Shown here one piece after another: positions 47,767 to 48,327 of a stretch of DNA of 51,167 nt. The translations under genes and the position numbers were made by a program. The notes beneath the pieces were generated by a model. It was not told the origin of the DNA and did no database searches. It saw only the letters and a list, made by a program, of their open reading frames with translations. The first letter of the stretch is position 1. Each line of letters opens with the position of its first letter. Origin of the DNA: an uncultured SAR86 cluster bacterium. Its GTDB lineage: Bacteria > Pseudomonadota > Gammaproteobacteria > Magnimaribacterales > D2472. The stretch is from NCBI GenBank assembly GCA_902509965.1, contig CABWZP010000006.1, positions 1 to 51,167 of the forward strand, in the 5' to 3' direction.

Positions 47767-48231
47767 CTAATTTAGTAAGAAAAATACAATCATTACACCT
47801 ATTACAAGCAATATAAGAAGATTATTATCAAAAGACTCAATTAAGCTGTCTTTTGTTGGGAATCTTAAGGACTTTATATAGTCCATATCTAAGTACTCTT
47901 CTAAAAATCCATCTTTTTCAGAATTTTTAGTAATATTTTTAGCATTTTCATTACTTACACCTGACATTGACTCATTTGACATTATTTTATCCTCCAAATT
48001 GTCGTTTTCTACATATCTATTATTTGTACTCATGGCTTCAATTGATACTAATTCTGCCAGTATTTCATCTCTTTTGTCCCTAGCAACCTTAATATCAGAA
48101 GTTTCTAAGGATTTCTTTATAAAATCTTTACCAATTATTTTTGAAACCTTTTTAGAAACTCTTTTTTGTATAAAATATATATCTTTATTTTTTCCTCGTA
48201 ATACAAGGTATTTATCATGATTTGTACTCAT
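47767..48231 (-). CDS. Tail-anchored protein with phage-integrase N-terminal-like (DUF6538-type) domain
   Basis: 154 residues. The first about 60 ('KYLVLRGKNKDIYFIQKRVS', 'IKKSLETSDIKVARDKRDEI') look like the arm-binding domain that begins many tyrosine recombinases (pattern YL..R...YY.RRVP..L...G...I..SL.T.D...AR). No SAM-like core or catalytic domain follows. Instead there is an acidic, Asn/Ser-rich linker (about 65-130) and a single C-terminal hydrophobic segment 'LLILLVIGVMIVFFLL', i.e. a tail anchor. The start codon lies in one of a set of direct repeats that continue upstream. I know no described family of this form; a membrane-tethered DNA-binding regulator is an inference. Confidence 0.55.
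   Translation of the reverse strand: MSTNHDKYLVLRGKNKDIYFIQKRVSKKVSKIIGKDFIKKSLETSDIKVARDKRDEILAELVSIEAMSTNNRYVENDNLEDKIMSNESMSGVSNENAKNITKNSEKDGFLEEYLDMDYIKSLRFPTKDSLIESFDNNLLILLVIGVMIVFFLLN
48023..48034. repeat. Intragenic copy of the TTTGTACTCAT repeat
   Basis: TTTGTACTCATG matches the 48221 repeat for 11 bases but lies inside the gene, where on the minus strand it codes again for Met-Ser-Thr-Asn. It could be a further binding site or a trace of duplication of the gene's own start. Confidence 0.6.
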
Positions 48232-48327
48232 AATGCACTAAGATAGTATTAATTTGTACTCATAATATGCCATAAAATTTTTTACAAATCAAATAAATGT
48301 ACCCATATTATAATTTGTACTCATATT
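48221..48327. repeat. Direct repeats TTTGTACTCATAAT upstream of the integrase-domain-like gene
   Basis: Copies begin at 48221 (overlapping the start codon), 48253, 48296 (degenerate, ATGTACCCATAT) and 48314 (one mismatch). All have the same orientation, with spacing of 32, 43 and 18 bp. A minus-strand TATAAT (48307-48312) lies between the last two, so the copies bracket a likely promoter in the 165-bp gap shared with the divergent gene at 48397. This looks like an operator array. Confidence 0.7.

Follow-up and report, generated by a model that had tools for sequence, protein, structure and literature searches.

A small gene in the genome of an uncultured SAR86 cluster bacterium starts within an array of short direct repeats and appears to encode a DNA-binding domain attached to the membrane, which raises the question of what the protein does with these repeats and which genes it serves. 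The locus lies near one end of the window, by which we mean the whole stretch of 51,167 nucleotides that was analysed. In gene orientation the repeat reads ATGNGTACA, with GTACA as its core. The preliminary description of this DNA reported four repeats over the start codon and promoter and a fifth inside the gene, and all five were confirmed. The gene, its parts and the sites have these coordinates:

47767..48231, minus strand: gene for the predicted tail-anchored DUF6538 protein, 154 amino acids, stop codon within the coordinates, 36 homologues.
48049..48207, minus strand: DUF6538 arm-binding-like domain, residues 9-61 (Pfam PF20172, E = 8.4e-6).
47854..48006, minus strand: disordered, variable and mostly acidic linker, about residues 76-126 (from pLDDT and charge).
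47773..47853, minus strand: predicted C-terminal membrane helix (tail anchor), residues 127-153 (from model and hydropathy).
48223..48231, minus strand: site 1, ATGAGTACA, the start codon together with codons 2-3 (Ser-Thr).
48255..48263, minus strand: site 2, ATGAGTACA, at -32.
48298..48306, minus strand: site 3, ATGGGTACA, at -75.
48316..48324, minus strand: site 4, ATGAGTACA, at -93.
48025..48033, minus strand: intragenic site 5, ATGAGTACA, at +198, read as Met-Ser-Thr at residues 67-69.

DUF6538 is the sole Pfam match of the protein. The match of residues 9-61 amounts to 25.8 bits in hmmscan, just under the cut-off of 27, and the same protein obtained 27.4 bits in a whole-genome search, a borderline pass; its homologues score up to 31.4 bits. 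The domain alignment contains 26 invariant columns across 31 homologues, and the domain is under constraint (pN 0.080, pS 0.524 between the window gene and its nearest relative, L002). No recombinase core was found in the 154 residues; the protein thus lacks both the core-binding and the catalytic domain of a tyrosine integrase. AlphaFold2, which was run on 25 homologues, predicts strands at residues 8-12 and 19-24, a helix at 27-33, a strand at 37-42 and a long helix at 47-75, followed by disorder at 74-112 (pLDDT <50) and a helix at 127-153. The domain modelled alone gave the same beta-beta-alpha-beta-alpha order. The arm-binding fold of integrases is a three-stranded sheet plus one helix (PMC8138268), and the predicted order of strands and helices fits it. 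Searches of solved structures with the models of the full protein and of the domain alone gave no significant match, and the fold is therefore assigned from sequence and topology; a profile search against solved structures produced one weak, irrelevant match and comparison with phage integrase models weak matches only. The linker has a median net charge of -3 among the homologues. All 36 full-length proteins reach a hydropathy of at least 2.05 over 19 amino acids, and in 34 of them zero or one residue follows the membrane helix. With a single C-terminal hydrophobic helix and an N terminus predicted to be cytoplasmic, the window protein is predicted to be tail-anchored. The integrase-type domain, the missing recombinase core, the acidic linker and the membrane helix of the preliminary description are therefore retained.

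Whether the repeats are more than chance cannot be read from their number in the window: searched as a 14-mer with three mismatches, the repeat was seen 14 times against 15.8 expected, which is not beyond chance. In a pattern search of the organism's own 1.08-Mb genome (82% complete) the 12-mer TATGNGTACAWW occurs five times, of which four are at this locus, and ATGNGTACA occurs 13 times, of which five are here. The eight copies of ATGNGTACA away from the locus are fewer than the 22 matches of a reversed control pattern. What matters is the clustering of the sites and their comparative conservation and not raw 14-mer abundance, and the comparative test is decisive. A scan for sigma-70 promoters upstream in the window gave eight matches against 7.3 expected, none of which stands out as strong, and the overlap of sites and promoter is therefore deduced from position and from an integrase relative (see below).

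The homologue scan returned 36 proteins, mostly from SAR86, and the window protein was matched in 52 of 203 genomes of the order, in most of them in the tail-anchored form. All 37 genes, the window gene included, have one to four site copies within 150 bp upstream, and in 35 of them a copy lies on the start codon itself; one gene has no start-codon copy even with a relaxed motif. With this relaxed motif a tandem pair is found at -11 and 0 in nearly all genes and at -10 and 0 in two, and the window gene and L002 have the pair at -32 and 0 instead. Outer copies group near -32, -53, -63, -74, -82, -93, -106, -116 and -135. Unique site distances recur with a period of 10.4-10.5 bp (R about 0.6, scan-corrected p 0.0005) in a test that counts related genomes as independent. 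The pairing of domain and repeats that had been suspected from one sequence is thus conserved in other SAR86 bacteria. Two further loci depart from the pattern: L053 (G082:C4:32924-33022) is a remnant with only the C-terminal part of a tail-anchored gene, a stop codon and no array, and L054 (G083:C1:388222-388632) has a normal array and start with a disrupted domain region, possibly a pseudogene or an assembly artefact.

The array could serve a one-component regulator of neighbouring genes, the desaturase and proteorhodopsin, or of a wider regulon. In the window it does lie between divergent genes, and the preliminary description had named the divergent desaturase-family operon close to proteorhodopsin as a possible target. 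The downstream neighbour is a kinase-like gene shared by 28 of the 34 genes with a called neighbour. Upstream the neighbours vary (dehydrogenase, rhodopsin, nitroreductase, desaturase or unrelated genes) and change between clades while the array stays constant. The gene occupies other genomic positions in two groups (L013, L019, L027 and L028; L006 and L023), and intergenic DNA also differs between homologues while the gene-array pair is kept. Since the array travels with the gene and the upstream neighbour changes, control of the desaturase and proteorhodopsin side is disfavoured, and this part of the earlier interpretation did not hold.

The genome scans, complete on the 1.19-Mb main contig of the related, nearly complete genome G100, speak against the wider regulon too. 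A position matrix built from 96 promoter sites found a single site cluster on this contig, namely this promoter, and the top four matches were its four copies. As in the window's own genome, where four of the five TATGNGTACAWW copies are at the locus, the repeat is not scattered at random. Twelve further genomes searched with ATGNGTACAWW had close tandem clusters at the gene only, with G070 as one clear exception, and neither search revealed a recurrent second promoter. The G070 array, the only second array away from the gene in the scanned genomes, would fit a regulon, as it stands upstream of another membrane ORF: at L211 (G070:C16:13174-13205) three tandem copies 11-12 bp apart precede an ORF of 160 amino acids in a variable, lipoprotein-rich region. 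Taken together, we regard a regulator of neighbours or of a regulon as very unlikely. Recurrent single sites elsewhere look on inspection like coding coincidences, examples being the Rieske CTH motif (TGT ACN CAT) and, near dnaA, an apparent glycyl-tRNA synthetase ORF. For the tail-anchored form no target except its own gene was found in the genomes scanned. L019 and L028 contain a second triple array with spacings of 21 and 11 bp (+1254 to +1286 and +1217 to +1249 from the gene start, respectively), which includes a degenerate copy of the gene start and no gene, and which lies upstream of a small ORF resembling a secreted protein.

Sites inside the gene, whose conservation the preliminary description had missed, give further information on what is under selection. 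Beyond codon 10, 27 of the 37 genes have extra copies, 46 in total, located in the linker (41), in the last 30 codons (5) and never in the conserved domain. Resampling of synonymous codons with each protein kept (200 rounds) yielded a mean of 1.7 and a maximum of 5 copies, so that the 46 seen are an excess of about 27-fold. Copies on the opposite strand (30 of 46) mostly read x-V-P-I/M, and of those on the same strand eight read M-S/G-T and eight E/G-Y in another frame. Val-Pro pairs are encoded as GTA-CCC in 31 of 34 cases in these genes versus 11 of 752 in the G100 genome. This excess, on both strands and in differing frames, indicates selection on the DNA motif, which is a strong argument against reading the repeats at the RNA or peptide level. 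Such a reading would make them repeated start codons, leader peptides or remnants of duplicated gene starts; every forward copy does contain ATG, copies can encode MSTN or MGT, and the degenerate gene start in L019 and L028 is a duplicate of this kind. Yet most copies inside the genes point the opposite way and the remainder use two frames, and sites are also present upstream of Rieske, GltD-like and integrase genes. We therefore consider it extremely improbable.

These other genes show where the domain may have come from. A DUF6538 match is present in 124 of 202 genomes of the order, exactly one in each, and four architectures were read: the tail-anchored form, a Rieske fusion, a GltD-like fusion and a full tyrosine integrase. 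In a sister genus, g3, the Rieske protein of cytochrome bc1 (TIGR01416, E = 2.6e-56) carries the domain at its N terminus; Rieske frames matched outside g3 are 193-218 amino acids long, too short for the domain. The GltD-like NAD(P)-binding oxidoreductase fusion heads a Kor operon, in which the next gene at the loci read encodes a 2-oxoacid oxidoreductase alpha subunit, and G100 has no close homologue of the fusion. Neither fusion was part of the preliminary description. Fused partners of DUF6538 are mostly Fe-S or redox proteins, and in one SAR86 family (L214, L136-L164) the DUF6538-GltD-like gene is the first of an operon that also encodes 2-oxoacid oxidoreductase subunits, is divergent from an iscR-iscS-type operon and shares the GGTACA array region with it. 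The full integrase with the domain was found in G041 (L046). In a tree of the domain (75 columns) this SAR86 integrase, the tail-anchored proteins and the Rieske fusions form one clade (100/98), within which the tail-anchored and Rieske forms are grouped (98/93); a position of Rieske beside one tail-anchored sequence (96/75) is not firm. The GltD-like fusions and one KorA fusion are placed elsewhere, which points to two or more independent captures of integrase domains, in a tree of a short domain with several long branches. Both membrane-bound forms have as their closest relative a SAR86 tyrosine integrase whose promoter contains GGTACA sites, and the descent from an integrase that was proposed earlier is thereby supported.

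The sites follow the domain into these relatives. The nine Rieske fusions are preceded by 33 relaxed copies versus 0.14 expected, and the 30 GltD-like fusions by 76 GGTACA versus 6.9 expected, which in many cases include the palindrome GGTACATGTACC. The promoter of integrase L046 (TTGACT-TATAAT) has GGTACATT in its spacer and GGGTACATT directly past the -10 element. In integrase-type DUF6538 genes of other Proteobacteria, searched over 110 bp before the domain match, the best short direct repeat is spaced 12-13 bp in 23 of 30 cases; 13 of the 30 have a repeat with at least 9 of 10 bases matching, and several repeats are GGTACA. Because repeats precede the domain in these integrases and sites follow the domain in SAR86, recognition of a tandem repeat in the own promoter is probably ancestral, and GTACA probably constitutes the recognition code of the DUF6538 domain in SAR86. 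The tandem repeats of the other proteobacterial integrases (L181-L210), right before the domain start, often adjoin a tRNA gene, and their sequence differs between integrases, suggesting domain-specific recognition. In g3 (L043-L045, L047-L052) a conserved frame of about 50-60 amino acids begins with a site copy (MGTNNRKYPDIKG in L045) after a purine-rich stretch. It stands between the array copies and the fused Rieske gene, about 160-190 bp before the latter, and is possibly a leader peptide or what remains of an older gene start.

The SAR86 integrase, with its closely related domain and the GGTACA sites of its promoter, would also fit a role in immunity, in which array and protein act as decoys and compete with mobile-element integrases that use the same recognition code. 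Such an integrase was seen only once in about 200 genomes of the order, and viral contigs contained nothing related to the SAR86 integrase or to the tail-anchored family. A decoy would moreover leave the membrane anchor and the Rieske and GltD-like fusions unexplained, and we deem it highly unlikely.

The explanation that we favour, with somewhat more confidence than doubt, is that a domesticated arm-binding domain became a DNA-binding protein which sits in the membrane, acts autogenously, probably as a repressor, and holds its own locus there. The domain very likely binds the ATGNGTACA sites, and autogenous control by the tail-anchored protein is likely as well; putative operators in the own promoter are present, conserved and confined. 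In this model a DUF6538-type integrase arm-binding domain, a flexible linker and a C-terminal helix would place the DNA-binding part on the cytoplasmic side. Most often two tandem copies spaced by 11 bp cover the start codon, and together with outer copies at approximately whole helical turns upstream they would allow many membrane-bound molecules to sit side by side on their own promoter and occupy the array cooperatively. The occupied array would cover the gene start and thereby repress transcription, and we consider repression rather than activation reasonably probable. In the lac system a second operator serves as loop partner, and the intragenic copies in the linker coding region may do the same. 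Since the repressor would be membrane-bound, the repressed state would hold the locus at the membrane, and the bound state would keep the gene at the inner membrane. In the manner of PutA, the Rieske and GltD-like fusions would control their own operons. A regulator that targets only itself needs a further output, of which the analysis revealed none, and this is a weak point that counts against our best explanation. The most likely output would be homeostasis, by a circuit that tethers the locus when the sites are bound; alternatively, the circuit may set the level of a membrane protein with a second role, or the tether itself may be the function. That physical anchoring of the locus has a physiological role is conceivable and somewhat doubtful.

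The protein could instead be a dedicated chromosome-to-membrane anchor, with the array as a centromere-like site at one locus and autogenous binding as the means and not the purpose. It is consistent with this that sites are restricted to one locus, that intragenic sites exceed the needs of promoter control, that a related domain is carried by another membrane protein, Rieske, with sites at the Rieske gene, and that L019 and L028 have a second array without a gene. On the other hand, the distance of the locus from dnaA is inconstant (about 105 kb in g8, 22-37 kb in g5 and 272 kb in g6), other SAR86 carry the domain on a GltD-like enzyme without obvious anchor, and the DUF6538 match is absent from many SAR86 genomes. 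A constant position near the origin or terminus, as expected of a chromosome-segregation anchor, was not found. We consider a dedicated anchor unlikely, and anchoring of the origin as a general role was rejected because genera differ in the dnaA distance, with extremes of 22 and 272 kb. In G100, 10 kb separate the gene from the cumulative GC-skew minimum and 105 kb from dnaA. On contig 1 of this genome the GC-skew minimum, the TA-skew maximum and the gene-strand minimum coincide at about 311,377, about 95 kb from dnaA (407 kb), and the third-codon-position skew has its minimum at 395 kb instead.

Returning to the favoured explanation, the gene-array pair is real and conserved, and it is undescribed in the literature searched, in which we found nothing on DUF6538 and no precedent for the Rieske fusion. 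It looks like an unrecognised self-controlling link between DNA and membrane in SAR86, in which a DNA-recognition module of mobile elements and its cognate sites have been reused as a portable cassette for self-regulation. SAR86 bacteria are among the most abundant bacteria of the surface ocean, and they carry the module joined to a tail anchor or to an Fe-S protein of respiration; a DUF6538 domain that is more distant is attached to a metabolic oxidoreductase. If true, this would be a concrete case, open to testing, of a membrane protein that is tied to the gene encoding it, and binding of GTACA repeats could be assigned to a Pfam domain of unknown function that is common in integrases. A tether for a single locus built from a captured arm-binding domain, by which in one genus, with the domain on Rieske, the bc1 complex would itself hold and control its own gene at the membrane, is a rather unlikely extension.

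Three known systems come close. Firstly, the arm-binding domains of tyrosine integrases such as lambda Int and Tn916 Int (PMC8138268) have a fold that agrees with the strand and helix order predicted for the window protein, which, as far as can be inferred, likewise recognises short direct repeats, and DUF6538 integrases have tandem repeats just before the domain start, as the window protein has its array. Unlike integrases, the window protein has a membrane helix instead of core-binding and catalytic domains, and its sites are in its own promoter and gene and not in an att site. Secondly, regulators of the CadC/ToxR type (PMC6320335; PMC7888679) have in common with it an N-terminal cytoplasmic DNA-binding domain and a single membrane helix, and in both cases protein and locus would become fixed at the membrane once the protein binds DNA; in E. 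coli, CadC is reported to be localised by DNA binding (PMC6320335). The window protein differs from these regulators in its DNA-binding domain, in its target, which is its own gene, and in having no periplasmic sensor: it has no Pfam match to a winged helix-turn-helix or a periplasmic sensor, and it ends in the membrane. Lastly, trigger enzymes such as PutA (PMC5293562) combine an N-terminal DNA-binding domain with a metabolic protein and act as autogenous repressors, and may serve as a model for the GltD-like and Rieske fusions. The domain is ribbon-helix-helix in PutA and an integrase arm-binding domain here, and the window protein has no enzyme part. There is a substantial chance that this combination of membrane-anchored regulator, autogenous repressor and captured integrase domain has no described counterpart.
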